A DNA stretch of 44,364 nucleotides from an uncultured Bacteroidales bacterium (GTDB lineage Bacteria; Bacteroidota; Bacteroidia; Bacteroidales; Bacteroidaceae): NCBI GenBank assembly GCA_902801485.1, contig CADCIP010000038.1, positions 1 through 44,364 on the forward strand. The letters are read 5' to 3'. Positions 5,826-20,796 of the stretch are shown piece by piece. The notes under the pieces are model-generated. The model saw nothing but the letters and a program-made list of their open reading frames with translations. It had not been told where the DNA came from and did not search any database. A program made the translations under genes and the position numbers. Position 1 is the stretch's first letter, and every line of letters starts with the position of its first letter.

Positions 5826-5910
5826 TTTTGAAAGGATAAAGACCATTGGAAATGCAAAGAATAAATTGAGAAGAATTTCTCATAAAATATTCTTAAATTA
5901 AATAATGTAT

Positions 5911-5918: not shown

Positions 5919-5952
5919 CACACAGAATATTCATACAAAAATACCAGAGAAC

Positions 5953-6024: not shown

Positions 6025-6081
6025 AACAGAAGGTCTCTCCTCTATGATTGAAAACATGTGGGTTGAAGTACTCAACAAAAA

Positions 6082-6165: not shown

Positions 6166-6223
6166 GTATTCTTGGACAATAAATCTTTGTTTTAACGATA
6201 AAGGAATAAAATATGTTCACGAA

Positions 6224-6255
6224 TTTGCGAACGCCAGTGTATTATTATATCTTTG
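6224..6255 (+). promoter_or_regulatory. Promoter of small ORF and chitinase
   Basis: TTTG at 6224-6227 and TATCTTTG at 6248-6255 are separated by 20 bases, a near-ideal Bacteroidetes promoter. It would drive the 52-residue ORF and probably the chitinase gene. Confidence 0.65.
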
Positions 6256-6295
6256 CACGCAAAAGTACAACTTATAAGCTGTAGAATAAGATAAT

Positions 6296-6454
6296 ATGGA
6301 TTTCAACAAGATGTATAGTTCCTCTGACGAATATCGGCGAGAGGAGCTGATAAAGAAAATAGAATATGCAGTGAATAACCTCACACTTGAAGAGTTGGAA
6401 GCGCTTCACTATGATATGATAACCAAAAACTATATCAACGAGAGGAATATATGA
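6296..6454 (+). CDS. Small hydrophilic protein, 52 residues
   Basis: A 52-codon ORF starts about 35 bases after the predicted transcription start. The protein is charged and probably helical (REELIKKIEYAVNNLTLEELEALHYDMI), with no signal peptide or Cys. The LTLEELEALHYDM part looks like a small helical DNA-binding or adaptor segment, but no family is recognised. It ends 42 bases before the chitinase start and may share its transcript. Confidence 0.5.
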   Translation: MDFNKMYSSSDEYRREELIKKIEYAVNNLTLEELEALHYDMITKNYINERNI

Positions 6455-6496
6455 ATTATAATTAATGGGAAGAACTCAAGACAACTGAAAATTTTC

Positions 6497-8347
6497 ATGA
6501 AACCATTATCCATTATCTTACTTTGTCTGACGCTAGTGTCTCCTTTGTCGATACTGGCGCAGGGAACAGAGAAAAAGGTTGTTGCCTACGTCACCTCCTG
6601 GTCATCTGTAATGCCCGATCCGTTTGTGATGACTCACATTAACTATGCTTTTGGCGGAGTGGGAGGCGATGGTGTCAGTGTGTATGCCGACAATACTTCT
6701 CGTATGCAGCAGATTATCCGTTTGAAAAACAGGAATCCCAAACTGAAGGTGCTGCTTTCTGTTGGCGGGTGGGGAAGAGGTAACTTTTCTCCTATGGCTC
6801 AGGACGATACCAAACGAAAGGCCTTTGCCAAAGCCTGTCGTGCTTTCTGCGATAAGTATAATTTGGACGGTATAGACATCGACTGGGAGTTTCCCGGTAA
6901 CAACTCCAGTGGCGAGACTTCTCCTTCCGGAGAGAAGCAAAACTATAACTTGTTGATGCGTGACCTCCGTGAAGCGCTTGGCAACGAACTGCTGCTTACG
7001 ATGGCTTCGTCGGCTGATCCCGGATATTACGATTTCAAAGGTTGCATTCAGTACCTCGACTTTGTAAATGTTATGACCTACGATATGTCGGGACCTCCCA
7101 ACCATCATTCGGCCCTTTATCGTGGCGGAAAGGTGGGCAACGGTTGGCTGGTGCAGTCCGAATCTGTACAGAAACACAGAAATGCAGGTGTTCCCGCCAA
7201 TAAACTGGTTATGGGTTTGGCTTTCTATGGTAATAGCGGTTCTGGAAGTCAGATATCACTGCAAGAGATAAAGAATGGTATAGCCAGTGGGAAATGGAAA
7301 GACAACTGGGACAATACAGCCAAGGTACCTTACGTGACAGATGCCAATGGTAAATTTGCCTACGGCTATGATGACGAGCGGTCTCTAACCATAAAATGCG
7401 ACTACATTGTTAAGCAGAAACTGGCAGGAGGAATGTATTGGGAATATGCTAACGATGATAACAAAGGTACCGAGCGTAATACCGTTTATGAATGTCTGCT
7501 GGGTACGAAATTCGATAACCTGAAATTTGGAGACAACTCGCTCAACTCAATTGGAGGTAATGCATATAATAGCATTATCGACTTCGTGCAGGACCAAGTG
7601 TATTATGCAACAGGAGCCGATGAGATGAATTCCGATACTTGGTATTACGACCCCGATTTCCTTCAGCGTGAATCAGACGGAGGCTACCGTTTCTTGGCTA
7701 TTAGCGGAAGATACAGTTTGACAGCCAACTTCTCCACAAGCAGTTTTGGCTTTGTCCCTCTCAACATGGAAGGTTCGCCGCTCACCTATGATGCAACTGA
7801 CGGAACAGGGTGCGTATGGGTTATTGGAGCCAAATCCTCTGTGGGTAAGCCTTTGTTTGCCGAGGGTGAGGATACCGAATGGGACGAAGGGAATGCCTTT
7901 CCCATGGCTCCCATCGGTGAACATCTGTATCGAATAACCCTGGAAGTGGGAAAGCAGTTGAATGCCAATATGGTAAATTTCAAGTTCTTTCACCAGAACG
8001 GATTCGGAAGTGGCGGTGAGTTTACACCTCGTGGCACCTATCGCATTTCTCTGGTAAACCGTACTTTTACCATTTCCAATACGACAACAGAGAAGGGGAA
8101 CGTCCAGTTGAGAAGAGGGGCTAAAATATCGGATGGACAGAAGTTCGTCTTTACTTTGGATACGAGCAACACATCCACTTCAGTCCTCACTATCGAGGAT
8201 TTTGAAACAGGAATCTCCAGCACCTGCAAAATCCCTACACTTCCTTCTGTTTTCTACGATTTGCAAGGACGTCGCATCATACAGCCCAGAAGTGGAAGTA
8301 TCTATATTGCTCCCACCAAGTCGGGAGAGTGGCGGAAGGTTCTGTGA
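6497..8347 (+). CDS. Secreted GH18 chitinase-like glycosidase
   Basis: This 616-residue protein begins with a signal peptide (about residues 1-22, ending LSILAQG). Residues about 27-335 form a GH18 domain: SVGGW at 88-92 and DGIDIDWEF at 124-132, where Glu131 is the catalytic acid, and MYWEYA near the barrel end. GH18 enzymes cleave beta-1,4 GlcNAc bonds in chitin or in glycoprotein N-glycans (endo-GlcNAcase type). The C-terminal half contains a predicted beta-rich region with VWVIGA and HLYRITLEV, resembling SusE/F-like carbohydrate-binding modules. It ends with FYDLQGRRI, a pattern common at the C-terminus of exported Prevotella proteins. Which substrate is used cannot be decided from sequence. 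It stands alone, without SusC/D genes beside it. Confidence 0.85.
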   Translation: MKPLSIILLCLTLVSPLSILAQGTEKKVVAYVTSWSSVMPDPFVMTHINYAFGGVGGDGVSVYADNTSRMQQIIRLKNRNPKLKVLLSVGGWGRGNFSPMAQDDTKRKAFAKACRAFCDKYNLDGIDIDWEFPGNNSSGETSPSGEKQNYNLLMRDLREALGNELLLTMASSADPGYYDFKGCIQYLDFVNVMTYDMSGPPNHHSALYRGGKVGNGWLVQSESVQKHRNAGVPANKLVMGLAFYGNSGSGSQISLQEIKNGIASGKWKDNWDNTAKVPYVTDANGKFAYGYDDERSLTIKCDYIVKQKLAGGMYWEYANDDNKGTERNTVYECLLGTKFDNLKFGDNSLNSIGGNAYNSIIDFVQDQVYYATGADEMNSDTWYYDPDFLQRESDGGYRFLAISGRYSLTANFSTSSFGFVPLNMEGSPLTYDATDGTGCVWVIGAKSSVGKPLFAEGEDTEWDEGNAFPMAPIGEHLYRITLEVGKQLNANMVNFKFFHQNGFGSGGEFTPRGTYRISLVNRTFTISNTTTEKGNVQLRRGAKISDGQKFVFTLDTSNTSTSVLTIEDFETGISSTCKIPTLPSVFYDLQGRRIIQPRSGSIYIAPTKSGEWRKVL

Positions 8348-8452
8348 ATCAGGGCCAACAGGTATATGGTTCCCTAAAAAAACTACTTTTTGCCATGTAA
8401 AGTAATCAATAATACGTTTTTTTGTTAAATTCTTGAAAAAAAATGCCAAAAC

Positions 8453-8485
8453 TTTGGTTTGTTTCCTGAGATTTTTTTATTTTTG
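8453..8485 (+). promoter_or_regulatory. Promoter of the peptide/export operon
   Basis: TTTG at 8453-8456 and TATTTTTG at 8478-8485 are 21 bases apart. Transcription would start near 8491, leaving a leader of about 175 nt before the first precursor gene. That leader has no long ORF and no obvious hairpin. It is the only convincing promoter seen before the export genes. Confidence 0.65.
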
Positions 8486-8667
8486 CACTATTATTGTATG
8501 GCTTAATGTCTTGAAGAGAACTCTGAATGAGTGTGACAGCCGAATCTAAACGATGTAAACCTGGTGGAAGAAACGAAAGATAAGCTAATACTGATAATTG
8601 AATGTGAGGAAATACGATAACCGATTTTGGTTTTTATATTAATGTTAAACTTTTAAACTATTAGATT

Positions 8668-8883
8668 ATGGCAGAGAAGAATGAAAAGCGAGTTCTGAAT
8701 ATTGAACTCGAGGATGATGTGAAGAAGGTTTCCATCAAAGGTTTGAACAGTGAGTCACAGGTGGTAATGAGCCAGGAACTGGATGAAGACGCTCTGGATA
8801 AAGTGGCAGGAGGAGTAAACCCAAACACAAACATTAACATTAGACCTGAGGTTTTAGACCCTAAAGTAAATAATCCTGTTTGA
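8668..8883 (+). CDS. Double-glycine leader peptide precursor 1
   Basis: This 71-residue peptide has a 49-residue leader ending VAGG, then a 22-residue tail starting VNPNTNIN and ending PKVNNPV. The leader is acidic, with IELEDDVKK and SQELDEDALDKVAGG, and is closely shared with the next two ORFs. A Gly-Gly end preceded by Leu-Asp-x-Val is the cleavage signal used by C39 peptidase exporters, and such an exporter is encoded 2.4 kb downstream. The tail has no Cys, Ser/Thr-rich or aromatic pattern, so disulfide or lanthionine bridges are excluded. I infer an exported peptide, either bacteriocin or signal. It is not an exact match to bacteroidetocins or to Nif11 leaders that I know. Confidence 0.75.
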   Translation: MAEKNEKRVLNIELEDDVKKVSIKGLNSESQVVMSQELDEDALDKVAGGVNPNTNINIRPEVLDPKVNNPV

Positions 8884-8899
8884 TTACAATTATTGAACC

Positions 8900-8927
8900 A
8901 TGGCCTCACATGAATTTGTGGGGCCAT
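8900..8927 (+). promoter_or_regulatory. Intergenic hairpin after precursor 1
   Basis: ATGGCCTCACA (8900-8910) pairs with TGTGGGGCCAT (8917-8927) with one mismatch and a 6-base loop. No T-run follows, so it is more likely an mRNA stability or processing element than a full terminator. Related sequences follow precursors 2 and 3. Confidence 0.55.
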
Positions 8928-8958
8928 GATTCATGGTGGTATTTTAAAGTAAGATAAT

Positions 8959-9141
8959 ATGGCTGAGAAGAACGCCAAGAGATTGGTGACAATTGAACTT
9001 GAGGACGAAGTGAAGAAACTTTCCATTACTGGTATGAACAGTGATGAGCAGGTGCTGATGAGCCGAGAGCTGGGCGAGGATCTCCTCGACCAGGTCGCTG
9101 GAGGGCAACGCGAAGGGCGAAATAATCTTCCGCATAAGTAA
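8959..9141 (+). CDS. Double-glycine leader peptide precursor 2
   Basis: This 60-residue peptide has a 49-residue leader ending DQVAGG and an 11-residue basic tail, QREGRNNLPHK. Its leader is nearly identical to that of precursor 3 at DNA level (they differ at only a few bases from the AAGAACGCC onward), showing a recent duplication, while the tails share nothing. The tail is Cys-free and has Pro near the end. The gene lies 75 bases after precursor 1. Cleavage after Gly-Gly by the C39 exporter downstream is inferred. Confidence 0.75.
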   Translation: MAEKNAKRLVTIELEDEVKKLSITGMNSDEQVLMSRELGEDLLDQVAGGQREGRNNLPHK

Positions 9142-9188
9142 GAAATTGAAACAGATTGATAGTTTGAAGGCAATTCTTGAACCAGCGA

Positions 9189-9212
9189 AGCCCTATGTGA
9201 AGTTTTGGGGCT
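9189..9212 (+). promoter_or_regulatory. Intergenic hairpin after precursor 2
   Basis: AGCCC at 9189-9193 and GGGCT at 9208-9212 enclose a TATGTGAAGTTTTG loop. It sits at the same place relative to its gene as the hairpin after precursor 1. The copy after precursor 3 (about 9466-9490, AAAGCCCTACGTGAAGTTG) keeps the sequence but not the closing stem. Confidence 0.5.
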
Positions 9213-9243
9213 ATATGGTAATGCAAGATAATACTCAGACGAT

Positions 9244-9432
9244 ATGACAGAGAAGAACGCCAAGCGATTGGTGACAATTGAACTTGAGGACGAAGTGAAG
9301 AAACTTTCCATTACTGGTTTGAACAGTGATGAGCAAGTGGTGATGAGCCAAGAGTTGGACGAGGATGTCCTCGACCAGGTGGGAGGAGGAGTCAGGCAGG
9401 GGGCAGGTATGGTTAAGCTAGAAGTGGTATAA
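9244..9432 (+). CDS. Double-glycine leader peptide precursor 3
   Basis: This 62-residue peptide has the shared 49-residue leader, here ending DQVGGG, and a 13-residue tail VRQGAGMVKLEVV. The leader differs from that of precursor 2 mainly at residue 2 and at a few positions such as Met26 to Leu. The extra Gly before the cleavage site is unusual but compatible with double-glycine processing. The tail is short, Cys-free and hydrophobic toward its end. It is the last precursor before the regulatory and export genes. Confidence 0.75.
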   Translation: MTEKNAKRLVTIELEDEVKKLSITGLNSDEQVVMSQELDEDVLDQVGGGVRQGAGMVKLEVV

Positions 9433-9511
9433 AGGGCATACTATACGAAGTTCCATAACCAATAAAGCCCTACGTGAAGTTGTTGTGCAACCAGAGACAT
9501 TAGGCTGAGGA

Positions 9512-9545
9512 GACCTGCCGCCTGATGGATTTTGTGGTGCAGGTC
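9512..9545 (+). promoter_or_regulatory. Stem-loop between precursors and export genes
   Basis: GACCTGC at 9512-9518 pairs with GCAGGTC at 9539-9545. A weak T-rich stretch follows (GATTTTGA). It could act as a partial terminator that keeps the precursors more abundant than the export machinery. The rest of 9433-9640 holds the degenerate third hairpin copy and no gene. Confidence 0.4.
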
Positions 9546-9640
9546 GATTTTGATAACGGTTTGCTGTTGCTTCACAATAGCCAGTTTTATGTCATGCTGG
9601 CGAATTATTAACCAGTGACAGTTAAGTAAAATAATAGAAT

Positions 9641-10048
9641 ATGAAACGCGAACTAACATTCAAAAACAAGGATCAGGAATTGAACCGCGTATCGGAGTTC
9701 ATGGAAGGTGTATGTGATGAACTTCAGCTTGACATGCATGTGGCCATGAAACTACAACTGGCTATGGAAGAGATGGTAGCCAACGTTATCTTCTATGCTT
9801 ATCCTAAAGGTACAGAAGCTGAGATCACCCTCACAGTTGAGAGTGAAAATAACGAACTGACTTTTGTGCTCTCTGATACAGGCAAACCCTTTGATCCAAC
9901 GGCAAAGGAGGATGCTGACATTGAGACCAATCCCATGGACCGCGAACAAGGTGGTATGGGCATTCTGATAGTCAAGAATATCATGAATGAGGTGAGTTAC
10001 CAACGCTTCGGTGAAGAAAACAGACTGACGATGAAGAAGAAACTTTGA
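9641..10048 (+). CDS. RsbW/SpoIIAB-like anti-sigma-type serine kinase
   Basis: This 135-residue protein is a stand-alone HATPase_c_2 domain. The N-box is EEMVANVIFYAYP (residues about 46-58), the G1 box DTGKPFDP (about 85-92) and the G2 box GGMGILIVKNI (about 105-115). Such kinases phosphorylate a STAS antagonist and hold a target protein inactive until the antagonist is dephosphorylated. A STAS gene follows after 27 bases and a SpoIIE-type phosphatase is encoded in the same operon, so all three parts of a partner switch are present. The target is unknown; no sigma factor is encoded nearby. Confidence 0.85.
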   Translation: MKRELTFKNKDQELNRVSEFMEGVCDELQLDMHVAMKLQLAMEEMVANVIFYAYPKGTEAEITLTVESENNELTFVLSDTGKPFDPTAKEDADIETNPMDREQGGMGILIVKNIMNEVSYQRFGEENRLTMKKKL

Positions 10049-10075
10049 AATAATAAAACACATAAAAATATAATT

Positions 10076-10381
10076 ATGACACAAATAATCAAAGAAGGAG
10101 GAAAAACCATCGTAAAAACCGGCCAGCGCATTGACACACTGAACGCTGCGCAGTTTGAAACAGACATTCAACCCGCGCTTGAACAAGGCGTGGATCTCGA
10201 AATCGACTGCACAGAGTTGAACTATATGGCCAGTTCCGGTCTTCGCATCCTTCAATCTACTATGCGTACCGTAATACGTAGCTTGGGCGGACAGATGAAG
10301 TTAACACACGTCTGTGACGACATCTTTGATGTGCTCAAAATGACGGGTTTCAACCGTCATATCACTATAGAAAGAGCTTAA
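10076..10381 (+). CDS. STAS-domain anti-sigma factor antagonist (RsbV-like)
   Basis: This 101-residue protein is a single STAS domain. The switch segment is LNYMASSGLRIL. By alignment with SpoIIAA (DSSG), Ser53 is the likely phosphorylation site, and the usual preceding Asp is Ala52 here. The protein should be phosphorylated by the RsbW-like kinase encoded just upstream and dephosphorylated by the SpoIIE phosphatase encoded at 16506. Its stop is 3 bases from the next start, so expression is coupled to the export genes. Whether it controls transcription or the transporter directly is open. Confidence 0.85.
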   Translation: MTQIIKEGGKTIVKTGQRIDTLNAAQFETDIQPALEQGVDLEIDCTELNYMASSGLRILQSTMRTVIRSLGGQMKLTHVCDDIFDVLKMTGFNRHITIERA

Positions 10382-10384
10382 CCT

Positions 10385-11221
10385 ATGGGTGAAATCTTCA
10401 ACCAAGAGGCGCTGGCGGCACTCGACGAACATCGTGAGACCGAAGAGATGCCCCGTGTGACGTCGCCTAAACTGAAACTTGTGCTGGGAGCGATGTTGAC
10501 CATTATGGTTGTATTGCTCTACTGGTGTATTTTCGGTACCATTAACTATAAGGTGACTGCACAGGGTTTGGTGTTTCCCTTTGGGGAGGTTACGCCCATC
10601 AGTGTTCCATACGAAGGTATTGTCTCGCGCAGTTTTCTGAGTCATGGCTCTGTCGTGGTGAATGGCAATGGTATCATGGAGATACGCAATGCCCTCTCGA
10701 CAACGGCGGTTGTAGCTCCGCGCGATGGTGTAGTCATCTCGACGCTTCCTGTCGGTTCTGCTTTTAAGGCAGGCGACCCTGTGGCCTGGCTCCTTCCCCA
10801 GGCTCAGCAAATGGCTGGTAGGGAAATGCTCTGCTACGTTACTTATAACGACCTGAGGAAACTGAAACTGGACCAACAGGTTCAGGCTACTCCTGCCAAT
10901 ATGGATCGCGAGAAATGGGGGTATGTATATGGTCGTGTGGTCGGAATTGAGCAGTTTCCAACCACAAGGAAGGAGATTATCAGCCGTCTGAAACTTGACC
11001 CGTTGGCTGCATTCATTCCAGACGGACAAGCTGTGTATGAGGTTCGTGTAGTACTAGATGAACGAGATGGCAGACTTGCATGGAGCCGTGAGAAGAGCCA
11101 AAATGAGAAAGTGGGTAACGGGGCCTTGTGCAATATCCAGATCATCACCAAGAAGAAACCCGTATGGCGTGTGCTTGTCGGTGCAGTTGACAACTCTATA
11201 GAAACAATAACGGGGAATTAG
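10385..11221 (+). CDS. HlyD-type adaptor of the NHLM-like peptide exporter
   Basis: This 278-residue inner-membrane protein has one membrane segment (about residues 32-53) after a short cytoplasmic tail. Downstream are two half-lipoyl pieces (VPYEGIVSR and VVAPRDGVV) separated by only about 35 residues, so the long coiled-coil hairpin of classic HlyD is missing. Then follows a beta-barrel part. Members of this type (NHLM bacteriocin secretion protein) pair with a C39 peptidase ABC exporter, which is encoded 15 bases downstream. It probably links the exporter to the periplasm. The lack of a hairpin means it cannot by itself reach a TolC channel, and a second adaptor with a hairpin is encoded at 18457. 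Confidence 0.8.
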   Translation: MGEIFNQEALAALDEHRETEEMPRVTSPKLKLVLGAMLTIMVVLLYWCIFGTINYKVTAQGLVFPFGEVTPISVPYEGIVSRSFLSHGSVVVNGNGIMEIRNALSTTAVVAPRDGVVISTLPVGSAFKAGDPVAWLLPQAQQMAGREMLCYVTYNDLRKLKLDQQVQATPANMDREKWGYVYGRVVGIEQFPTTRKEIISRLKLDPLAAFIPDGQAVYEVRVVLDERDGRLAWSREKSQNEKVGNGALCNIQIITKKKPVWRVLVGAVDNSIETITGN

Positions 11222-11236
11222 CGACCACAAATCTAT

Positions 11237-13378
11237 ATGAGCAGGAACAAAGTAGCGAAAGTGCCCATGGTGATGCAGATGGAGGCCGTAGAGTGCGGTG
11301 CAGCATCGCTCACAATGGTTTTGGCCTACTACGGCAAGTGGCTCCCGTTGGAACAGGTTCGTGCTGCCTGTGGTGTGAGCCGCGACGGTTCATCGGCAAA
11401 AAGCATCTTACGGGCGGCAAGAAACTATGGTCTGACCGCCAAGGGGTATCGCACGACGTCTGAAGGGCTTGATGGCATGCAGCCTGCTATCATACATTGG
11501 AACTTCGAGCATTTTGTCGTATTCAAGGGCTTCGACCGAAAAGGTAATGCCTGTCTGAACGACCCCGGTTTAGGTCCTGTTAAGTGGCCCTTAGAGGAAT
11601 TCAAAAAGCATTTTACCGGTGTTTGCCTGACCTTCAGTCCCACAGAAAGTTTTGAGAAGGGAGGTGAGCCGACAAATATCCTCTCGTATATGAGGAAAAA
11701 TCTCATCGGTGCAAGTGAAGCTTTCTGGCTGACGCTTATATTTGCATTAATGATTGCTTTTATTACGTTGATATCCCCACTGTTCACCCGTGTCTTCCTT
11801 GATGAGATTCTCTCGGGCAAAAACGCTGACTGGGCCAAGTGGTTTTTTGTTGGAATGGGTGCCTTGGCTACCTATCATTTCTTTGTTGTCCTGCTGCAGA
11901 GCCGTTATTCCAAACGTATTGCCGGACTATTGGCCCTGAAAGGTAACAGAGAGTATCTCTTCCATTTGTTGCGACTGCCGATGTCTTTTTTCGCCATGCG
12001 AAACGTCGGTGATCTTCAGCAACGTATGCACCTGAACGAGACAATCACCCATTCTCTGGTGGAAGTGCTCGCCCCACAGGTTATTAATATCGGGCTTCTT
12101 CTGCTATATCTTCTATTGATGTTTTCTTATTCCGCATGGCTTACGATGATTGGCGTTGTAGCTGCCATTGTGAACCTGGGAATAGTGCAATACTTTTCGA
12201 AACAGCGTATTAACCTCGTCCGTTCGATGGAACAGAGCGAGGGACAGTATTACTCGGCCACCATCTCATGTATTGACAACATGGAGAGTATTAAGGCGGC
12301 GGGTGCTGAGGCAGGATTCTTCGAATATTGGTCCGGACTATGGGCCCACAAGTTCAACGTAAACAGCAATACCGAAAGTCAGCAGGCGATGATGGCCCTG
12401 TTGCCCGTTGTGGCAACCGGACTGGTGAACATGGCGGTGCTTGTATTCGGTGCCTATTTGATTCTGCAAGGTAACCTGACTGTGGGTATGCTCATGGCTT
12501 TCCAAGGATTCATGGGCTCGTTCCTACAGCCTGTAAACGCTATCGTTAATGCTTCGCAGACGATTGTCGAGATGCGTTCGCAGATGGAACGTGTAGAGGA
12601 TGTGATGAAATATCCCGAAGATCATCGGGATAGTGGGGGCGAAGTAGTCCGGGGTAAGCTGGGCGGACTATTGGAACTGAAGCATGTCACCTTTGGCTAC
12701 TCACCGCTCCAGCCTCCACTTATTGAGGACTTCAACCTGAGGATAGAACCAGGTCACTCTGTAGCTTTCGTAGGCTCGTCAGGGTGTGGGAAGAGCACAT
12801 TGGCCAAACTAATCAGCGGTCTTTATAAACCCTGGAGTGGAGAGATCCTCTTTGACAACAGACCAATCGAGAGCATATCGAGCGAGGAACTGACGAATTC
12901 TGTTGCTGTAATAGACCAGAATGTGGTACTTTTCGATGATACTGTAGCGCAGAACATCCGAATGTGGGATCCGTCGATCGAGGACTTCACAATGATGATA
13001 GCTTGCAATGATGCACAGATACGTAGCGACATCGTGAGCCGTCCAGAGGGATTCGGTACTAAGATTGTCAAGGGTGGACAGAATTTCTCGGGTGGACAGC
13101 GTCAGCGCATAGAAATGGCTACGGCTCTTGCAAAGGAGCCTGCCATCCTGATTATGGACGAAGCTACAAGTGCCCTCGACCCGAAGACTGAAGACGAGGT
13201 GATGCGCCGAATCCGACGCATGGGACCCACACAGATTATCGTGGCACACCGTCTGTCAACAATCCGTGACTGCGATGAGATTATCGTGATGAACCAAGGT
13301 AAGATCCTGCAGCGAGGGCGTCATGAGGAACTTATTGAACAAGAGGGCATGTACCAGGATTTGATGAAGAGCGTTTAG
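11237..13378 (+). CDS. C39 peptidase-containing ABC exporter (NHLM-type)
   Basis: This 713-residue protein has an N-terminal C39 peptidase with Gln14, Cys20 (VECGAASL), His92 (EHFVVFKG) and Asp109 (NDPG), all required for cleaving double-glycine leaders. A six-helix ABC membrane domain follows (about residues 160-430), then an ATPase domain with GSSGCGKST, FSGGQRQR and LIMDEATSALD. It should remove the leader of precursors 1-3 and drive the peptides out of the cytoplasm. The overall arrangement is that of the NHLM bacteriocin peptidase/ATP-binding protein. It is followed within 6 bases by a second ABC exporter, the usual NHLM partner. Confidence 0.9.
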   Translation: MSRNKVAKVPMVMQMEAVECGAASLTMVLAYYGKWLPLEQVRAACGVSRDGSSAKSILRAARNYGLTAKGYRTTSEGLDGMQPAIIHWNFEHFVVFKGFDRKGNACLNDPGLGPVKWPLEEFKKHFTGVCLTFSPTESFEKGGEPTNILSYMRKNLIGASEAFWLTLIFALMIAFITLISPLFTRVFLDEILSGKNADWAKWFFVGMGALATYHFFVVLLQSRYSKRIAGLLALKGNREYLFHLLRLPMSFFAMRNVGDLQQRMHLNETITHSLVEVLAPQVINIGLLLLYLLLMFSYSAWLTMIGVVAAIVNLGIVQYFSKQRINLVRSMEQSEGQYYSATISCIDNMESIKAAGAEAGFFEYWSGLWAHKFNVNSNTESQQAMMALLPVVATGLVNMAVLVFGAYLILQGNLTVGMLMAFQGFMGSFLQPVNAIVNASQTIVEMRSQMERVEDVMKYPEDHRDSGGEVVRGKLGGLLELKHVTFGYSPLQPPLIEDFNLRIEPGHSVAFVGSSGCGKSTLAKLISGLYKPWSGEILFDNRPIESISSEELTNSVAVIDQNVVLFDDTVAQNIRMWDPSIEDFTMMIACNDAQIRSDIVSRPEGFGTKIVKGGQNFSGGQRQRIEMATALAKEPAILIMDEATSALDPKTEDEVMRRIRRMGPTQIIVAHRLSTIRDCDEIIVMNQGKILQRGRHEELIEQEGMYQDLMKSV

Positions 13379-13384
13379 ACTACT

Positions 13385-15553
13385 ATGGCAGTATATATCA
13401 ACCAAATAAACAAGCGGCGGGCAGCAGAGAAGGCTGCGATGTCTGAGGTTTATGAAAAAACCAACGAACGGCTTGGTCTGCGTCAGCATAAGCATGTTGT
13501 GCCACAGAACGATGAGAGTGCGCTGCGACAAGTGCTTGAAGCCCTCGGCATCACCGACTACGAACTGGAAGAAAATGACCTTTTGACTCCAGAAGAACAG
13601 TTGACAGGAATTCTCCGTCCCCGAGGCATCATGATGCGCAGCGTCCGTCTGAAAGGCGAATGGTGGAAGGAGTGTGTCGGGCCGTTGTTGGGTTATGCAA
13701 AGGATGGTCGCCTGGTGGCTCTTACGCCCACAAAAACGGGTCTTGGTTACCAGTATAGGGAGAAGGACGGTTCAATCCAAAAGGTGTCGCGTCGCAATAT
13801 GGAGACAGAACTGAGGCCTCAGGCTGTGACCTTCACCAAGGCGCTGCCCCTGAAACCATTGAAACTGAAGGACCTCATCATTTTCACTTGGGGTGTGGTT
13901 TCGGGGCCGAATGTTTTGCTCTTGGTGTTGTGCGCTCTAATGGTTGTGCTGCTTGGTATGTTTACACCTATGGCAAACAAACTCATTTTCGATACTGTGA
14001 TTCCTACGGGCGATACCAATGACCTATTGCCAATTACCGGCTTGCTCTTCGGTGCTACCATCGGCACTTTGCTGTTGACCCTAACGCGTAACCTATATAT
14101 ATTAAGGATAAAGAACACTGTTGAGTTGCATGTGCAGAACGCAGTAATGGCACGTACGTTCCTGTTGAGTCCCACCTTCTTTTCAAAGAACTCCAGTGGT
14201 GAACTGACGGCCAAACTGCAGAATGTAGCAACCCTCTGTTCTATGGTGAACGAGACAGTTGTCGGAGCACTGCTTTCTATGGTATTGAGCATCATCCTCC
14301 TGATACAGGTTTATATCTACGGCGGTAAGTTGCTTTTGCCAGCACTATTCATCATCGCCGCACAGGTTTTGGTACTTGTGCTTGACTATTACCGTACCGT
14401 TGACGTACGGCAGAAATACACCCAGCGTGCAGCTAAACTTACAGGTCTGGAGTACAATCTTTTTGCGGGTATCCAGAAACTGAAACTGACAGGTTCTGAG
14501 AACCGGGCCTTCGCCCGTTGGCTCGACAAATACAGCGATGCGTCAAAGATCATCTATAACCCTGCATTTAAGGGGCGCCTCTATCCTGCCTTGACTGCTT
14601 TCTTAGGTCTCGGTGGCACAATGCTTATCTTTTGGAGTACCTTATCAAACAATGTTTCTACCTCAGATTATATTGCCTTCAGCTCGGCCTTCGGCATGAT
14701 TACTACCTCTTTGACACAGCTTAACCTGGTACTACCGTATTTGGCACAAATTAAACCGTTGTTGGAGAGCGTGAAGCCTATTTTGGAGGCTGTACCCGAA
14801 ATGGAAGCCAAGGCTCCGCAAGTGGATGAACTGTTCGGCGGTATTGACGTCTCGGGTGTTTCATTCAGATATAGCGAGGACGGACCGCTGATCCTTGATG
14901 ACCTGACACTTCATATAGATCCGGGAGAGTATGTCGGCATCGTAGGAAAGTCGGGCTGTGGAAAATCAACGCTTATGCGTTTGATGCTTGGTTTCGAGAA
15001 ACCTCTTACAGGGGGTATATACTATGACAACTACGACCTGGCAAAGGTTGACAAGACCTCGCTAAGACGTAAGATAGGCTGCTGCCTCCAGAGCGGAAGC
15101 CTTTTTACAGGTGACTTGTTTCATAATATCACCATTACAGCTCCTTGGGCTACGCACGACGATGCGTGGGATGCCTTGAGGATGGCCTGTCTGGAAGAGG
15201 ATGTGCGCAACATGCCGATGGGACTCCATACTGTGGTGTCGGAAGGCGGAGGAGGATTCAGTGGCGGACAGAAGCAGCGTATCCTCATTGCGAGGGCGCT
15301 CATCGCGAAGCCCGACATCATCTTCTTTGATGAGGCAACATCGGCTCTCGACAACATCTCGCAGAAGGCCGTTAGCGACAATCTCGACGACTTGATGTGT
15401 ACACGAGTGGTCATTGCCCACCGTCTCTCTACCATCCGCCATTGCGACCGCATCATTGTTCTCGACAAGGGTCGTATTGCCGAAGAGGGTACATTCGAGG
15501 AACTGATGGAGAACAAGGGCCTCTTCTACACTATGGCACAAAGACAGTTATAA
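13385..15553 (+). CDS. Second ABC exporter of the NHLM-type pair
   Basis: This 722-residue protein has an N-terminal domain of about 150 residues with no Cys/His peptidase set (a degenerate regulatory or substrate-binding part), a six-helix membrane domain (about 165-435) and an ATPase domain with GKSGCGKST, FSGGQKQR and IIFFDEATSALD. NHLM systems carry such a non-peptidase ABC protein next to the peptidase one; the two may form a heterodimer. All ATPase motifs are intact. It ends 3 bases before the binding-protein gene. Confidence 0.88.
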   Translation: MAVYINQINKRRAAEKAAMSEVYEKTNERLGLRQHKHVVPQNDESALRQVLEALGITDYELEENDLLTPEEQLTGILRPRGIMMRSVRLKGEWWKECVGPLLGYAKDGRLVALTPTKTGLGYQYREKDGSIQKVSRRNMETELRPQAVTFTKALPLKPLKLKDLIIFTWGVVSGPNVLLLVLCALMVVLLGMFTPMANKLIFDTVIPTGDTNDLLPITGLLFGATIGTLLLTLTRNLYILRIKNTVELHVQNAVMARTFLLSPTFFSKNSSGELTAKLQNVATLCSMVNETVVGALLSMVLSIILLIQVYIYGGKLLLPALFIIAAQVLVLVLDYYRTVDVRQKYTQRAAKLTGLEYNLFAGIQKLKLTGSENRAFARWLDKYSDASKIIYNPAFKGRLYPALTAFLGLGGTMLIFWSTLSNNVSTSDYIAFSSAFGMITTSLTQLNLVLPYLAQIKPLLESVKPILEAVPEMEAKAPQVDELFGGIDVSGVSFRYSEDGPLILDDLTLHIDPGEYVGIVGKSGCGKSTLMRLMLGFEKPLTGGIYYDNYDLAKVDKTSLRRKIGCCLQSGSLFTGDLFHNITITAPWATHDDAWDALRMACLEEDVRNMPMGLHTVVSEGGGGFSGGQKQRILIARALIAKPDIIFFDEATSALDNISQKAVSDNLDDLMCTRVVIAHRLSTIRHCDRIIVLDKGRIAEEGTFEELMENKGLFYTMAQRQL

Positions 15554-15556
15554 GAT

Positions 15557-16501
15557 ATGAAAAGGAAAATTTTGATTATGGCGGCAGGGGCGATAATGGC
15601 CTTACTCCCGATACAGGCGCAGAAGAAATTTGTCTTCACGCCCCAGTGGACAGCACAGGCCCAGTTCGCTGGCTATTATGTAGCCAAAGAGAGAGGATTC
15701 TACAAGCAGGCCGGACTTGATGTAGATATCGTTCACCCTTCAGTCACCCAGACTGCCTTATCTCGTATGCATAATAACCAGAGCCAGGCCACAACACTGA
15801 CCCTCTGTCAGGCAATGGAAATCATCGATGACGGTGTAGATGTGGTCAATATTCTTCAGACGTCGATGAATACCGGCTTGGTACTTGTATCACGTAAGGA
15901 TGAAGACCCGCTCAAGCAGCGTGGCATGAAAGTCGGTATATGGAACGCTGGCTTCGGACAATTAGCCGTTTTTATGAACGCCAAGGAGCATTTGAACTAC
16001 GAATGGGTACGCTTTGCCTCGAGCATAAACCTCTTTTTATCAGGTGCCATTGACGCCACGCTTGCCATGAGCTACAACGAGTATTATCAACTGGCACAGG
16101 CAGGCGTGAAGCTCACCAAACGTAACGTCTATCGTTTCAGCGATCACCACTACAATGTTCAGGAAGATGGTCTTTATATGAACCGCGACTATTACAACAG
16201 CCACCGCGACGAGGCCCGTCGTTTTGCAGAGGCCAGTAGGAAAGGGTGGGAGTGGGCCGCAAAACATCCCGATGAGACGCTCGATATCGTGATGGATTAT
16301 GTGCGTCGCGGACATATCGGTACCAACCGTATGCTCCAGAAGCTGATGCTCACTGAAGTGCTCCGCCTGCTGGTGGATCGCGAATCGAAGAAACGTGATT
16401 ATCGTCTGCGTCCTGACATGGTAAAGATGGCCAGCCAACTCATGTTGGAGAACAAGATGCTCAAAAAAGAAGTGAAATACGAACAGATCATAGCCAAATA
16501 G
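15557..16501 (+). CDS. Orphan THI5/NMT1-like periplasmic binding protein
   Basis: This 314-residue protein has a signal peptide (residues about 1-21, ending IQAQ) and no lipobox Cys. The core FTPQWTAQAQFAGYYVAKERGFY, split here as FTPQWTAQAQ plus FAGYYVAKERGFY, is the NMT1/THI5 (SsuA-like) fold start, normally feeding pyrimidine, taurine or nitrate importers. No permease or ATPase for import is encoded near it. It lies between the exporters and the Cache-SpoIIE phosphatase gene, 4 bases before the latter, so I infer a sensory role: presenting a ligand to the Cache domain. Transport with a distant permease is the alternative. Confidence 0.8.
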   Translation: MKRKILIMAAGAIMALLPIQAQKKFVFTPQWTAQAQFAGYYVAKERGFYKQAGLDVDIVHPSVTQTALSRMHNNQSQATTLTLCQAMEIIDDGVDVVNILQTSMNTGLVLVSRKDEDPLKQRGMKVGIWNAGFGQLAVFMNAKEHLNYEWVRFASSINLFLSGAIDATLAMSYNEYYQLAQAGVKLTKRNVYRFSDHHYNVQEDGLYMNRDYYNSHRDEARRFAEASRKGWEWAAKHPDETLDIVMDYVRRGHIGTNRMLQKLMLTEVLRLLVDRESKKRDYRLRPDMVKMASQLMLENKMLKKEVKYEQIIAK

Positions 16502-16505
16502 ACTT

Positions 16506-18443
16506 ATGAAGAATCCTCTGAAATATCTCCGTCGGTCGCTTTCCGCCAGGCTTAGCCTATGGATAGTGCTCTTCGCTACCTTCGTCTTTCTGACGGCCCT
16601 TAGCTATATGTTCTATGAGTCGCGTCGCGCCGTAAAAGAAGAGGCTATGAACAGGGCAACTCAGGTGCTTGACAATACCGTACAGCGTGTAATAAACATC
16701 CTCGACCGTGTGGAAGTGGCCACCAATAATACCGACTGGCTTCCCACCCGTCATCTCAATGCGCCCGACTCGATGTTCGTGTACTGTCGCCGTATTCTGG
16801 AGAATAATCCCGACCTTAACGGTTGCTCTATCGCTTTCGAACCATACTATTTTAAGGATCGTGGCAAGTTCTTCTCTGCTTACAGCTACAACAACGGAAA
16901 GACTATCCAAACGACTCAGGAGGGTAGTGAAAACTATAACTATTTCGTTATGGACTGGTACCAGCTCTGTAAGCTGCTTGACCGTCCCACATGGACAGAG
17001 CCTTTCATGGACTATAACCCTGACAACATCTACTCTGCGGACATGATTGCCTCCTACTGTAAACCCATGAAGGACAAAAACGGTGAATTCATAGGAACCT
17101 TCTCAGTTGATCTCTCCCTCGGCTGGCTGTCAAACACTATTTCGGCCATTAAGCCCTACCCAAATTCGTACAGTATCATGATTGGAATGGGCGGTACCTA
17201 TTTCGTTCATCCAGACACAACGAAACTCTTTTACCAGACCATCTTCACCGAGACCCTGGAAAAAAAGGATACTGCCCGCACCGCACTCGCTTATGCTATG
17301 CTGAACGGCGAGGAAGGCATGAAAAGGCTAAACTTCGACGGTGAGGACTGTTTTGTGTTCTACAAACCCCTTAGTACTACGGGGTGGAGCGTCGCTGTGG
17401 TATGTCCAGTGAGCGACATCTTCGGTGGGTATCGTGCTGTCATCGGAATCGTCATCTTTGGTATGCTGTTGATGTCATTCTTCTTCAGCCGTATCATACG
17501 GCGCGAGATAACCCCCTTGCACCATTTGGCCAAACAAGCCGAGACCATTGCTTCTGGACAGTTTGACCAGACCTTACCTGACGAAGGCCGTGTTGACGAA
17601 ATCGGACAGCTTAGTCATTCGTTCGGATACATGCAGAAGTCGTTGGTAAACTATATCGAAGAACTGAAGGATACCACCGCATCAAAGGCCGCTATCGAGA
17701 GCGAGTTACAAGTAGCCAGCGACATTCAGATGGGTATGGTGCCTCGTATCTTCCCTCCGTTCCCCAATCGCCATGACATTGACCTCTTTGCTTCGATGAC
17801 TCCCGCGAAAGAAGTGGGTGGAGACCTCTACGACTTTTTTGTACAGGACGAGCATCTCTATTTCTGTATCGGTGATGTCAGTGGCAAGGGAATTCCGGCT
17901 TCACTGTTCATGGCTGTTACGCGTAACCTCTTCCGTATTATTGCGCAGCAGGGACATGAGCCTGAGCAGATAGCTACCGAGATTAATCTCTTCCTTTCGA
18001 AGGACAACGACCGGGGTATGTTTGTCACCATGTTCATCGGTATGGTTGACCTCAAGACGGGCCGTCTCGATTTTTGCAACTGCGGTCATAATCCTCCAGT
18101 ACTGATTGGAATGGAAGATACTAAGGCCAACTTCCTGCCGATGAAGTACGTCAACCAGCCGCTTGGATTATGGGAGGACGATCCTTTCTTCGGTGAATAT
18201 ATTGATGACATCCGTGGTAAGCTGATGTTGGTATATACCGATGGATTTAATGAGGCTGAGAACCCTAAACAAGAGTTATTTGGCAATGATGCCGTCCTGA
18301 AGCTGATGTCAAACGCTGCCGACAAGACTCCGAAAGAGGTCATCAAGATGATTCAGGAGGCTGTCGAAATCCACCGCGCAGGTGCCAGTCCCAACGATGA
18401 CCTGACACTGTTGTGCCTGAGAATCAAAGAAGATAACGGATAA
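16506..18443 (+). CDS. Cache-HAMP-SpoIIE sensor phosphatase (RsbU-like)
   Basis: This 645-residue membrane sensor has a first membrane helix at about 15-36, a periplasmic Cache-type domain (about 40-300), a second helix near 310-328, a HAMP linker, and a C-terminal SpoIIE/PP2C phosphatase domain. Metal-binding motifs are intact: GGDLYD near 437, GDVSGKG near 456, YTDGFNE near 577 and NDDLTLL near 630. It should dephosphorylate the STAS protein encoded at 10076 when its periplasmic domain senses a ligand, releasing the partner of the kinase. Being in the export operon, it makes the system self-contained. The ligand could be the exported peptide or something bound by the THI5-like protein; both are guesses. 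Confidence 0.88.
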   Translation: MKNPLKYLRRSLSARLSLWIVLFATFVFLTALSYMFYESRRAVKEEAMNRATQVLDNTVQRVINILDRVEVATNNTDWLPTRHLNAPDSMFVYCRRILENNPDLNGCSIAFEPYYFKDRGKFFSAYSYNNGKTIQTTQEGSENYNYFVMDWYQLCKLLDRPTWTEPFMDYNPDNIYSADMIASYCKPMKDKNGEFIGTFSVDLSLGWLSNTISAIKPYPNSYSIMIGMGGTYFVHPDTTKLFYQTIFTETLEKKDTARTALAYAMLNGEEGMKRLNFDGEDCFVFYKPLSTTGWSVAVVCPVSDIFGGYRAVIGIVIFGMLLMSFFFSRIIRREITPLHHLAKQAETIASGQFDQTLPDEGRVDEIGQLSHSFGYMQKSLVNYIEELKDTTASKAAIESELQVASDIQMGMVPRIFPPFPNRHDIDLFASMTPAKEVGGDLYDFFVQDEHLYFCIGDVSGKGIPASLFMAVTRNLFRIIAQQGHEPEQIATEINLFLSKDNDRGMFVTMFIGMVDLKTGRLDFCNCGHNPPVLIGMEDTKANFLPMKYVNQPLGLWEDDPFFGEYIDDIRGKLMLVYTDGFNEAENPKQELFGNDAVLKLMSNAADKTPKEVIKMIQEAVEIHRAGASPNDDLTLLCLRIKEDNG

Positions 18444-18456
18444 GGAGGTTTACTGT

Positions 18457-19344
18457 ATGAAGAAAGTGATGATATTCATGGCCGTAGCTGCACTGACAGC
18501 AGGCTGCGGCAGAGGGCAGTCAGAAAAAAATACCGCTGAGAACGATTCCGTACATACAACTATGACAGATTCGGTTGTTAAGTCTGCAAGTAACTCAGTC
18601 CGGCAAGAGAAGTCGCTGCCCGAAGGAAATGTCACGAGCACTATGGGAAAAGTTGTTTCTGAGCATTTTGCTGACTTGTCGTTCGAGACAGCTCTGCCTA
18701 TCAAGTGTGTTTTAGTCCGTAATGGTCAGCATGTTCGTCGCGGCCAGGTTTTGGCCCAGCTTGACCAGTTCAAGCTCCGTAATGCTGTTGACCAGCAGGA
18801 ACGTGCTATCGAACAGGCTCAACTTCAAATAGAGCAGGCTCAACTGCAGATGAAGGACGTAATCATCGCCCAAGGATATGATCCCGACAAGATGGCACAA
18901 GTGCCCGCCAACGTGTTGCACAATGCCGATGTGAAGTCCGGCTATGCCCTTTCCAAGAATCAGCTGGCCTCAGCACAGACCAAGCTTGAAGCCGCCCGGC
19001 ATGAACTTCGAAACTGTGTGCTTACTGCCCCCTTCGACGGCGTGGTAGCTAATGTCACTGTGCAGGCACATCAGTTAGCTCAGGCCGGACAGCCTGTCTG
19101 CAGAATTATTGCTTCGGATGAGATGGCTGTAGAGTTTCGCGTGATGGAGGCCGACCTCTGTCGTTATCAACTCGGGTCGGCAGTGTATGTCATCCCTATT
19201 GCCAACAAGTCGCAGCATTTTTCCGGGACTGTCAGTGAAATTAATCCCATAGTAGATAAGCAAGGGGCACTTACCATCCGTGCCCGCCTCTCCAAAACTG
19301 CCGAACTTTTCGACGGCATGAACGTGGAAGTCATTCTGAAATAG
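18457..19344 (+). CDS. Periplasmic adaptor lipoprotein (membrane fusion protein)
   Basis: This 295-residue protein has a lipoprotein signal with Cys17 (ALTAGCGRG). It has lipoyl halves (KCVLVRNGQHVRRGQVLAQL and LTAPFDGVVANV) flanking a coiled-coil hairpin of about 90 residues rich in Gln, Glu and Ala, then a beta-barrel part. It resembles RND-type adaptors but no RND pump is encoded. The TolC gene follows after 3 bases. I infer that it bridges the export machine to TolC, complementing the hairpin-less HlyD adaptor encoded at 10385. Confidence 0.85.
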   Translation: MKKVMIFMAVAALTAGCGRGQSEKNTAENDSVHTTMTDSVVKSASNSVRQEKSLPEGNVTSTMGKVVSEHFADLSFETALPIKCVLVRNGQHVRRGQVLAQLDQFKLRNAVDQQERAIEQAQLQIEQAQLQMKDVIIAQGYDPDKMAQVPANVLHNADVKSGYALSKNQLASAQTKLEAARHELRNCVLTAPFDGVVANVTVQAHQLAQAGQPVCRIIASDEMAVEFRVMEADLCRYQLGSAVYVIPIANKSQHFSGTVSEINPIVDKQGALTIRARLSKTAELFDGMNVEVILK

Positions 19345-19347
19345 CTT

Positions 19348-20796
19348 ATGAGACGGATTTTCATTCTTGCTTTCTTTGCTGTAATTACCGCCTCGGCGCA
19401 ACAGCAAGTCGTGTTAGACCTTGACCGAACGGTACGGTTGGCAACCGATAGCTCTCTGTCGGCGCAAAAGTATCAGAGTGTCTATAATGTCTCTCGCTAT
19501 AAGTACTTGTCGTGGCGGGCATCTCGCAAAATTCAGTTTTCGCTTGAATCTACTCCTGTAATGTATGAACGTTACATGACCAGACGTTATCTGTCCAACG
19601 AGGACATCGACGTGTATCGTCAGCAACGGATGTTCTATTCACAGGCAGGAATTACTGCCACGCAGATCATAGAACCCTTGGGTGGACATATATATGGTTC
19701 CACACAGTTAGGCTTTCTCCGTACTTTCGGCGATCAGAACCAGACGCAGGTTATGACCGTCCCCATTTCTGTGGGATACAAGCAGGACTTGCTTTTCTAT
19801 AACCCCTTGAAATGGGCCAAGAAAATCGAGCCTCTCAAGTTGGCTCGTGCAGAAAAGGAACGCGCTTATGGTATTGAGACCGCATCAGAGGAGGCTGTTG
19901 CTAAGTTTTTTGCCCTTGCCCTTGCTCAGGATCAGCTACGGATGGCCGAGGAATATCTGGCCTCATGCGACACTATTTATGCAATTGGAGAGAAACGCTA
20001 TAAGATTGCCAGCATCCCGAAGGCTGAACTAAGCATCTTAGAACTTCAGAAAACTAATGCCCGCACAACCCTTGCCAATGCCCGTATTGCCCGTAACCGG
20101 GCTGCTCAGGAATTAGCAGCTTATCTTGGAATGGACAGACAGACGGAGATCGAACTCATCATTCCCTCGGTGGTTAACATGCTACATATAGATGTGTCAG
20201 AGGCTATCATGCAGGCTCGTGCAAACAATCCGAAGTATTTGAGCAGCCAGCAGGCGATTGCCGAGGCTCGTCGTGAGGCTGAGCGTGCCAAGGTAGAGAA
20301 GAAATTAAGTTTGAGCCTGGATGCCAGCATTGGTCTGAACCAGGTGGCCGACAACTTTCCCGATGCCTACAGACATCTGCTTACACAGGACAAGGCCACA
20401 ATTACTCTCTCTGTACCTATCAAGGACTGGGGAAAACGCAAGAACGCTTGGCTCGCAGCCCGCAGTAATGTAGATGCAGCCGAGAGCGCAGGAAATGAGA
20501 CGGCCCGCGACACAGAACTTGAAATCGCACAAACAGTAGCCGACTTCAACGAGCGTCAGGATATTGTTGAAACTTCACGTCAGGCCCTTACCATTGCTGA
20601 GGATGCTTATGGCCAGACGCTCCAGCGTTTCATCCGTGCTCAAGCTAATGCCTATGACCTTTCACTGGCCCAAAGCCATTGGCAGACCGCCAGGCAGAAT
20701 CAGATTGCTTCACTCAAAAACTACTGGTTGGCCTATTACCATTTGCGTCGTCTGACCCTCTACGACTATCAGCGCCATGAACCTATTACTCACTGA
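19348..20796 (+). CDS. TolC-family outer-membrane channel protein
   Basis: This 482-residue protein has a signal peptide (about 1-18, ending ASAQ) and the internally repeated helical pattern of TolC-like outer membrane efflux proteins, with long amphipathic helices (AEARREAERAKVEKKLSLSL, and the ETSRQALTIAEDAYGQTL region near the end). Two about 200-residue halves are visible. It provides the outer-membrane exit for the peptides. It is the last gene of the operon and overlaps the convergent lpxH gene by 7 bases; no terminator is visible there. Confidence 0.88.
   Translation: MRRIFILAFFAVITASAQQQVVLDLDRTVRLATDSSLSAQKYQSVYNVSRYKYLSWRASRKIQFSLESTPVMYERYMTRRYLSNEDIDVYRQQRMFYSQAGITATQIIEPLGGHIYGSTQLGFLRTFGDQNQTQVMTVPISVGYKQDLLFYNPLKWAKKIEPLKLARAEKERAYGIETASEEAVAKFFALALAQDQLRMAEEYLASCDTIYAIGEKRYKIASIPKAELSILELQKTNARTTLANARIARNRAAQELAAYLGMDRQTEIELIIPSVVNMLHIDVSEAIMQARANNPKYLSSQQAIAEARREAERAKVEKKLSLSLDASIGLNQVADNFPDAYRHLLTQDKATITLSVPIKDWGKRKNAWLAARSNVDAAESAGNETARDTELEIAQTVADFNERQDIVETSRQALTIAEDAYGQTLQRFIRAQANAYDLSLAQSHWQTARQNQIASLKNYWLAYYHLRRLTLYDYQRHEPITH

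Follow-up and report, generated by a model that had tools for sequence, protein, structure and literature searches.

The DNA analyzed here (the window) is a 44,364-nucleotide contig, CADCIP010000038.1 of assembly GCA_902801485.1, from an uncultured Bacteroidales bacterium. It carries an operon of 12 open reading frames (ORFs), all open and all on the plus strand, spanning 8668-20796. The operon probably serves to cut short double-glycine (Gly-Gly) peptides and carry them across both membranes by an NHLM-type C39/ABC exporter, with a sensor-driven partner switch in control and the ancestral radical SAM maturase lost. The parts, their order and motifs, and the remnant and junction of the maturase loss are evident at the level of sequence. 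The operon itself appears real and conserved, and would be a variant of NHLM-type peptide export with a recruited partner switch.

Organization of the operon

The gene content put forward in the initial annotation is borne out. Three Gly-Gly precursors are followed by a kinase, a STAS protein, a HlyD-like adaptor, two ABC exporters, a binding protein, a Cache-SpoIIE phosphatase, a second adaptor, and a TolC-type channel as outer-membrane exit, each of these nine backed by domain searches. The features are:

8453-8485, plus strand: match to the Bacteroidales-type promoter pattern TTTG-N(17-22)-TAnnTTTG, the sole plus-strand match within 6256-20796
8668-8883, plus strand: P1, Gly-Gly precursor with a 49-residue leader and a 22-residue core without Cys
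8881-8925, plus strand: radical SAM 5' stub after P1, the weakest (48 blastn columns aligned with L003 3235-3282 at 77% identity, E 6e-4)
8959-9141, plus strand: P2, Gly-Gly precursor with an 11-residue core
9165-9211, plus strand: radical SAM 5' stub after P2 (47 bases aligned by blastn with L003 3235-3281, 87% identical, E 5e-11)
9244-9432, plus strand: P3, Gly-Gly precursor with a 13-residue core
9453-9590, plus strand: radical SAM/SPASM maturase remnant between P3 and the kinase, about codons 5-50, with stop codons inside
9577/9579, plus strand: deletion junction relative to L003, from collinear blastn blocks
9641-10048, plus strand: HATPase_c_2 protein, RsbW/SpoIIAB-like, presumed STAS kinase (PF13581, E 4e-25)
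10076-10381, plus strand: STAS protein with Ser53-Ser54-Gly55 (TIGR00377, 55.1 bits, cut-off 53.45)
10385-11221, plus strand: short NHLM-type HlyD adaptor (TIGR03794, 104 bits, cut-off 156; best stretch is profile 252-415 of 421)
11237-13378, plus strand: C39 peptidase-ABC exporter, ABC1 (TIGR03796, 881 bits, cut-off 853; Cys, His, and Asp motifs present)
13385-15553, plus strand: second ABC exporter subunit, ABC2 (TIGR03797, 701 bits, cut-off 709; residues 46-722 over profile 7-686)
15557-16501, plus strand: NMT1/THI5-like periplasmic binding protein (PF09084, E 6e-30)
16506-18443, plus strand: dCache-HAMP-SpoIIE phosphatase (PF02743, PF00672, PF07228; four phosphatase motifs present)
18457-19344, plus strand: CusB/HlyD-type adaptor, lipoprotein-like (PF13437, PF16576; lipoprotein signal by eye)
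19348-20796, plus strand: OEP/TolC-type outer-membrane channel (PF02321, E 8e-25)

As had been proposed, intergenic gaps are mostly short (under 30 bases in 8 of 11 cases), and the single promoter would be the match at 8453-8485. The pattern represents one promoter type and is matched 7 times across the window, where 1.16 matches are expected. Internal starts or attenuation may occur, because sigma-70 patterns match 25 times against 15.2 expected and terminator-like sites number 13 against 10.4, two of them on the plus strand between the precursors and the kinase.

The source genome comprises 3.6 Mb in 85 contigs, the window being contig 38. Its relatives belong to the Prevotellaceae/Bacteroidaceae and are mostly of ruminant origin, and the host is probably a rumen bacterium of the Prevotella/Bacteroides group.

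Remnant of a radical SAM maturase

The operon had been described as lacking any modifying enzyme. For intact genes this holds, but the description missed the decayed remnant of a radical SAM gene at 9459-9578, and the evidence does not support a system that is enzyme-free by nature. Its closest relatives by ABC1 (89%), loci L002 and L003, encode 450-residue radical SAM/SPASM proteins in front of the kinase, one in view in L002 and two in L003, and the window keeps a deletion scar. These proteins match PF04055 and PF13186, and their best NCBIfam relatives are peptide maturases, all below cut-off. A tblastn search of the window with them returned 9459-9578 at 70% identity with one in-frame stop (E 3e-11), and the whole-genome maturase search returned 9453-9590 with two stops.

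The scar is well delimited. By blastn, 9243-9577 is collinear with L003 3024-3370, which covers the last precursor and the maturase start, and 9579-9654 is collinear with L003 8236-8310, just before the kinase. At the junction about 4.9 kb of L003 are absent from the window: the remainder of the maturase, along with a TPR-SpoIIE gene and another maturase. The latter two were apparently either lost from the window together with the first maturase or gained in L003. Remnant, junction, and the stubs after P1 and P2, compared with L003, indicate that the maturase was lost in the window lineage. The remnant differs from the L003 gene by 0.16 nonsynonymous (dN) and 0.39 synonymous (dS) substitutions per site over 39 codons, a comparison too short to date the loss.

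An intact maturase beside a precursor, the mark of a radical SAM cluster for ribosomally synthesized and post-translationally modified peptides (RiPPs), is present in L003 and absent from the window. The ancestral peptides would have been modified by the radical SAM enzyme, which the window lineage then lost; if the operon is still in use, its peptides would now be exported unmodified. A second maturase copy in the source genome was considered and rejected, since a search of that genome (85% complete) for homologues of the L003 maturase gave only the remnant and one match at E 0.007.

The initial annotation was to count as refuted if genomes with homologous loci always held radical SAM, YcaO, or lanthionine enzymes elsewhere. 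This is the case only in part: SPASM proteins occur in 8 of the 9 genomes searched and are absent from the genome of L019 (2.0 Mb, of unstated completeness). YcaO and LANC-like enzymes were each found in 0 of 7 genomes, the incomplete source genome included. Among 301 genomes of the family, relatives of the radical SAM protein at E 1e-30 occur in two, G173 (49%, L100) and G281 (29%, L101). Neither was accepted as the same system, as the radical SAM gene is the sole match to the query set in the 20 kb around each.

Precursor peptides

The cores of P1-P3 are 11-22 residues long and none of the three contains Cys. A leader search of the source genome returned P1, P2, and P3 as the only matches, and the P2 and P3 leaders differ with a dN/dS ratio (omega) of 0.23 over 49 codons. 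No match to the NHLP/Nif11 leader models TIGR03793 and TIGR03798 was found at E 1. Assignment of P1-P3 to the XyeA, NHLP, or Nif11 precursors was rejected, as only XyeA matched, with 13-16 bits against a cut-off of 33.

Gly-Gly ORFs are found on the plus strand in 29 of 49 exporter loci and on the minus strand in two (L011, L032), by a pattern set after such ORFs had been seen, so that the count is not a blind test. Only loci in which 900 bases or more precede HlyD were counted, and in these the stretch from 4 kb upstream of HlyD to 1.5 kb past the exporter genes; the L003 precursors fall beyond the 4-kb limit and were found separately. Both minus-strand ORFs also resemble precursor leaders. 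Judged by these counts, the Gly-Gly leaders are a genuine family.

Some related loci hold precursors of other designs. L009 has ten Gly-Gly precursors in a row (4815-7093) with cores that all differ, and tandem double Gly-Gly sites occur in precursors of L026 (17607-17774), L030 (17563-17736), L031 (9795-9962), and L019 (5320-5448). Upstream of the exporter in L006 (8896-9120), L004 (8655-8879), L043 (7997-8386), and L040 (7947-8309) are small proteins with a membrane helix and a coiled coil, ending in VTGG and a short tail, which are candidates for odd precursors.

Proposed export through both membranes

ABC1 exceeds the TIGR03796 cut-off, in keeping with the NHLM type first assigned to the exporter genes. 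The exporter is termed NHLM-type rather than a full NHLM member because its HlyD falls under the TIGR03794 cut-off. ABC1 matches chain 4ry2 over its full length (E 1e-87); multidrug ABCB1 chains without a C39 domain score higher. The matched chains 4ry2 and 8hf4 we take to be PCAT1 and ComA.

The model of HlyD (predicted local distance difference test 75, predicted template modeling score 0.56) has one membrane helix and beta domains and lacks a long alpha-hairpin. Its best fold in the PDB is BesA (template modeling score, TM, 0.38-0.41), which presumably also lacks the hairpin. Because the modeled HlyD has no hairpin, the second, lipoprotein-like adaptor would be the one to reach TolC. The C39 domain of ABC1 would cleave P1-P3 after Gly-Gly, and ABC1/ABC2, the hairpin-less HlyD, the second adaptor, and TolC would carry the cores outside.

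Partner switch and sensors

The motifs of a SpoIIE/RsbW/STAS partner switch (kinase boxes, STAS serine, phosphatase aspartates) are intact in the window, and all parts of the switch are present, as first described. The ATP-binding boxes of the kinase, read by eye, are kept in 14 aligned rows, and the Ser-Ser-Gly of STAS is present in 19 of 19 rows. The best PDB match of STAS is an anti-sigma-B antagonist (6m36, E 1.6e-7), and the solved chain nearest to the NMT1 protein is a pyrimidine-binding protein (3ix1, E 5e-9). The NMT1 protein would bind a small periplasmic molecule and set the Cache-SpoIIE phosphatase, which would dephosphorylate STAS at Ser53/54, the HATPase rephosphorylating it. The state of STAS may then decide whether the system is made or runs. 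No cognate sigma factor is present among the operon genes, to which the search for one was confined, and no STAS target is evident among them. The earlier term "self-contained" is therefore too strong, the more so as NMT1/Cache switches are common in the family.

Sensors differ among exporter loci. Cache-SpoIIE occurs in six, with the NMT1 gene directly in front in all six. Other exporter loci have a TPR protein with one membrane helix, a SpoIIE domain, and, by eye, a lipoprotein signal. In L018 the precursor and TPR-SpoIIE genes alternate. Structure prediction gives the TPR sensor a solenoid fold; its fold matches include peptide-binding TPR proteins but are generic (TM at most 0.6 by query length). 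A TPR part related to that of L003 (25.6% identity over 387 columns, E 2e-28) ends in an AraC-type DNA-binding domain in L004 and L006 (Prevotella ruminicola KHT3), and these TPR-AraC regulators sit in loci without a partner switch. Of the 40 loci that lack STAS, 15 have an AraC homologue no more than 3.5 kb from the exporter, compared with 0 of the 19 that have STAS; seven of these 15 are weak matches (23-34 bits) and the loci are related, so the count is not an independent test. The partner switch and the AraC regulator seem to replace each other, as would be expected if both regulate the exporter system.

Exporter loci in related genomes

One scan with ABC1 of the window yielded 58 loci, 59 with the window; distant relatives are undersampled by this single scan, and many of the contigs are cut. 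Kinase and STAS occur together in 15 of the 59 loci (window included), STAS only in four, and kinase only in none. A search for the same gene order, recommended with the initial annotation, found it from kinase to TolC, identical to the window, in L003, L005, and L008; L019 shares the gene set, but its NMT1 and SpoIIE genes have shifted to the front. Precursors are kept in relatives that have the exporters, being in view in 13 of the 15 kinase and STAS loci, although the only one of L015 lies behind TolC.

Maturation genes vary among these 15 loci. Radical SAM genes are present in two (L002, L003), glycosyltransferases in two, and the remnant in the window. GT8 genes lie in L012 (465-5535) and a GT2-GT8 fusion in L051 (104-2083). 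In L005, L008, L018, L019, and L055, with more than 3 kb in view, no maturase is seen, as judged within the stretch available by homology search for radical SAM and GT8 proteins and by eye from the ORF list; L055 has a subtilase. L010, L014, L015, L016, and L017, with less than 0.8 kb before the kinase, are uninformative on this point. From these counts, exporter and switch are the constant parts and maturation the variable one. L111 (G241), reached through STAS, has two TPR-SpoIIE genes separated from the kinase by a precursor, three GT8 genes, a GT2 gene, and a UDP-galactopyranose mutase gene (3420-9233). GT8/GT2 genes beside Gly-Gly precursors and exporter in L111, L012, and L051 may point to glycosylated peptides.

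The exporter occurs in 3 of 139 genomes of the genus, the source genome included, which makes it an accessory trait. On the ABC1 tree the kinase and STAS rows cluster, needing 4 changes versus 13.2 when shuffled. The branch with all STAS rows has moderate support (81/86), and an inner branch of 24 rows, which includes AraC loci, has 100/99. The tree holds 53 rows, with both the window and its own copy L001 in and rows of at most 550 residues dropped (L046, L051, and others), and near-copies help the clustering.

Alternative explanations

Several observations weigh against an operon that still exports peptides under an intact switch. The kinase ORF of L015 is broken across two frames, 3 of 14 relatives (L019, L023, L035) have no match to the last SpoIIE motif pattern, and 4 of the 19 STAS loci (L022, L023, L041, L046) have no visible kinase. 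No precursor is found in L002 despite 6.4 kb in view, or in L010 with only 119 bases before the kinase. Cys is present in the core of 4 of 5 Gly-Gly ORFs of L003 versus 0 of 3 in the window, a difference that decay would also explain. In favor of the operon, all nine of its exporter and switch genes have omega values of 0.018-0.114 relative to L003, lowest for STAS, but dS is 0.9-2.2 and near saturation, so these values reflect past constraint and not constraint after the maturase loss. Lastly, an intact maturase could sit in the missing part of the genome.

This last point opens the way to a split locus, in which the peptides are still modified by a maturase elsewhere or in the missing part and the operon belongs to an ordinary radical SAM RiPP cluster. 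Such an arrangement is very unlikely, as no homologue of the L003 maturase better than E 0.007 lies outside the window, and the two SPASM proteins found elsewhere in the genome score above the anaerobic sulfatase maturase and TIGR04133 cut-offs, with no small Gly-Gly ORF listed beside either. It is also unlikely, if less so, that the locus is a decaying leftover whose precursors became useless with the maturase and whose remaining genes have not yet eroded. The remnant, the stubs and stop codons, the Cys-free cores, and the sporadic presence in the genus would all suit such a leftover; yet all twelve ORFs are open, the P2 and P3 leaders differ with an omega of 0.23, and the full gene set persists in L005, L008, and L019, where no maturase is in view.

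Two further explanations concern what the peptides do. ComC, ComAB, and ComDE form a pheromone circuit with a two-component system, and by analogy the cores could be sensed by the operon's own envelope sensor, which would set the partner switch. Relatives offer some encouragement: very short cores (5, 11, and 13 residues), one core near-identical in six closely related loci (L014-L018, L055), the alternation of precursors and TPR-SpoIIE genes in L018, and a TPR part shared with the TPR-AraC regulators and modeled as a solenoid with peptide-binding matches. Those fold matches are generic, however, and the window has NMT1 and Cache in place of TPR. NMT1 proteins bind small molecules, and the ten different cores of L009 look more like a diversified product set, so that a pheromone circuit seems distinctly improbable. 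Somewhat more credible, though still doubtful, is a bacteriocin system making unmodified antibacterial peptides like the bacteroidetocins. The Gly-Gly leaders and the C39 exporter speak for it, and the available part of PMC6671954 describes bacteroidetocin producers as self-inhibited, suggesting that an immunity gene is unneeded. The same part gives bacteroidetocins at least two Cys, whereas the window cores, at 11-22 residues, have none.

Switch cassettes outside exporter loci

The switch of the operon looks recruited from a common module of the family, because NMT1/Cache cassettes are common there and often stand beside transporters. Of 301 genomes of the family, 54 contain a relative of NMT1. 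Twenty of the 62 listed matches were fetched, chosen by hand and mostly high scorers (15 at 63-70% and five at 47-52% identity), and in all 20 a SpoIIE gene directly follows NMT1, with gaps of -23 to 56 bases. Gene labels in these cassettes are best phmmer matches. By best match and length, 12 of the 20 have a SpoIIE-HATPase fusion, tested by Pfam in the source genome only (L112, L113, L114). A transporter lies between the phosphatase gene and STAS in eight, namely seven Na/H exchangers and one SLC13-like protein; Pfam was run on two of the exchangers and the other five match the first at E below 1e-249. In two more cassettes transporter genes follow STAS (an RND adaptor and pump; a Xan_ur permease). 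The remaining ten are without such a transporter, four of them without STAS in view, three of these being cut or broken.

On contig 24 of the source genome (L112) the order is NMT1, Cache-SpoIIE-HATPase, CitMHS/TrkA-C permease, and STAS. Cassettes of NMT1, Cache-SpoIIE-HATPase, transporter, and STAS were noted in L112 and L115-L129, in genomes of the family Bacteroidaceae. Two loci without this exporter carry related STAS genes. In L109 (7856-11162; STAS 69% identical) kinase, STAS, and a histidine kinase lie directly behind an MlaE permease and an ABC ATPase. In L110 (6109-11064; STAS 60% identical) fused HATPase-STAS and a histidine kinase lie behind MFS and POT genes.

These neighborhoods raise a tentative and rather unlikely reading, in which the partner switch of this family would be a module for controlling transport, and STAS, instead of antagonizing an anti-sigma factor, would be a phosphorylation-gated regulatory subunit of membrane transporters, here of the peptide exporter. 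The STAS protein MlaB offers a parallel, being seated on the ABC ATPase MlaF. The reading draws on the lack of a sigma factor in the operon, on STAS standing beside HlyD in four loci without a visible kinase and never the reverse, on STAS being the most constrained gene (omega 0.018), and on the transporter neighbors in the cassettes, on contig 24, and in L109 and L110. Against it, the histidine kinase after STAS in L109 and L110 is a rival output, half of the fetched cassettes have no such transporter, and the seven exchanger loci look orthologous, which leaves few independent events. Candidate outputs of the switch would be transcription via an unseen factor, a histidine kinase, or direct transporter gating.

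Relation to known systems

The operon resembles NHLM/NHLP export (TIGR03794, TIGR03796, TIGR03797; Haft, Basu, and Mitchell 2010, PMC2887384, available in part) in placing C39-ABC, ABC, and HlyD beside small precursors. It differs in its leaders, which are not NHLP/Nif11 by hidden Markov model, in the short HlyD, and in the added second adaptor, TolC, and partner switch. A word search of the available main text of PMC2887384 finds STAS and Bacteroid 0 times, with one file-wide count of 'stas'. Bacteroidales RiPP clusters with a peptidase-containing ABC transporter (PCAT), membrane fusion protein, and outer-membrane protein (Fernandez-Cantos 2023, PMC10352776) share the Gly-Gly precursors, C39 exporter, radical SAM or glycosyltransferase genes, and, in some, TPR genes. 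In the part of that paper available, radical SAM is present in 8 of 9 clusters and LanM in the ninth, and the main text mentions neither SpoIIE nor STAS.

Partner switches elsewhere offer two likenesses, each from the accessible part of its source. In SiaABCD of Pseudomonas (PMC8457831) a small partner protein, switched between states by a phosphatase and a kinase, has a direct action on its effector; the operon, unlike SiaABCD, is without a diguanylate cyclase and is tied to an exporter. The SiaA model is the best NCBIfam match of the phosphatase, though its 65 bits fall far below the cut-off of 700. BtrU/V/W of Bordetella (review PMC8256260) couples a partner switch to a secretion system, which is type III secretion and not peptide export. 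No partner switch with an NHLM-type exporter was found in the open-licence literature, a search that does not establish absence in print, and the available part of a paper on rumen bacteriocins (PMC13289728) contains nothing on this system.

PCAT1 and ComA likewise couple C39 cleavage to export; unlike them, the operon belongs to a two-membrane envelope and has an ABC pair and its own partner switch. Peptide export in rumen Bacteroidota would be a kit whose core of C39/ABC exporter, two adaptors, and TolC is fixed while its ends vary: the sensor (NMT1 with Cache-SpoIIE, TPR-SpoIIE, or TPR-AraC) and the maturase (radical SAM, glycosyltransferases, or none in view). As the scar catches a maturase loss with the exporter still open, it can be asked whether such operons work on unmodified peptides. 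The cassette-transporter neighborhoods give a testable idea of what common switch modules of the Bacteroidota control.

Genes upstream of the operon

Upstream of the operon, at 566-3727, an EcoRI-type adenine methylase gene, a GmrSD/HNH-like gene, and a DUF4268 gene stand in a row, in what looks like a restriction-modification locus.

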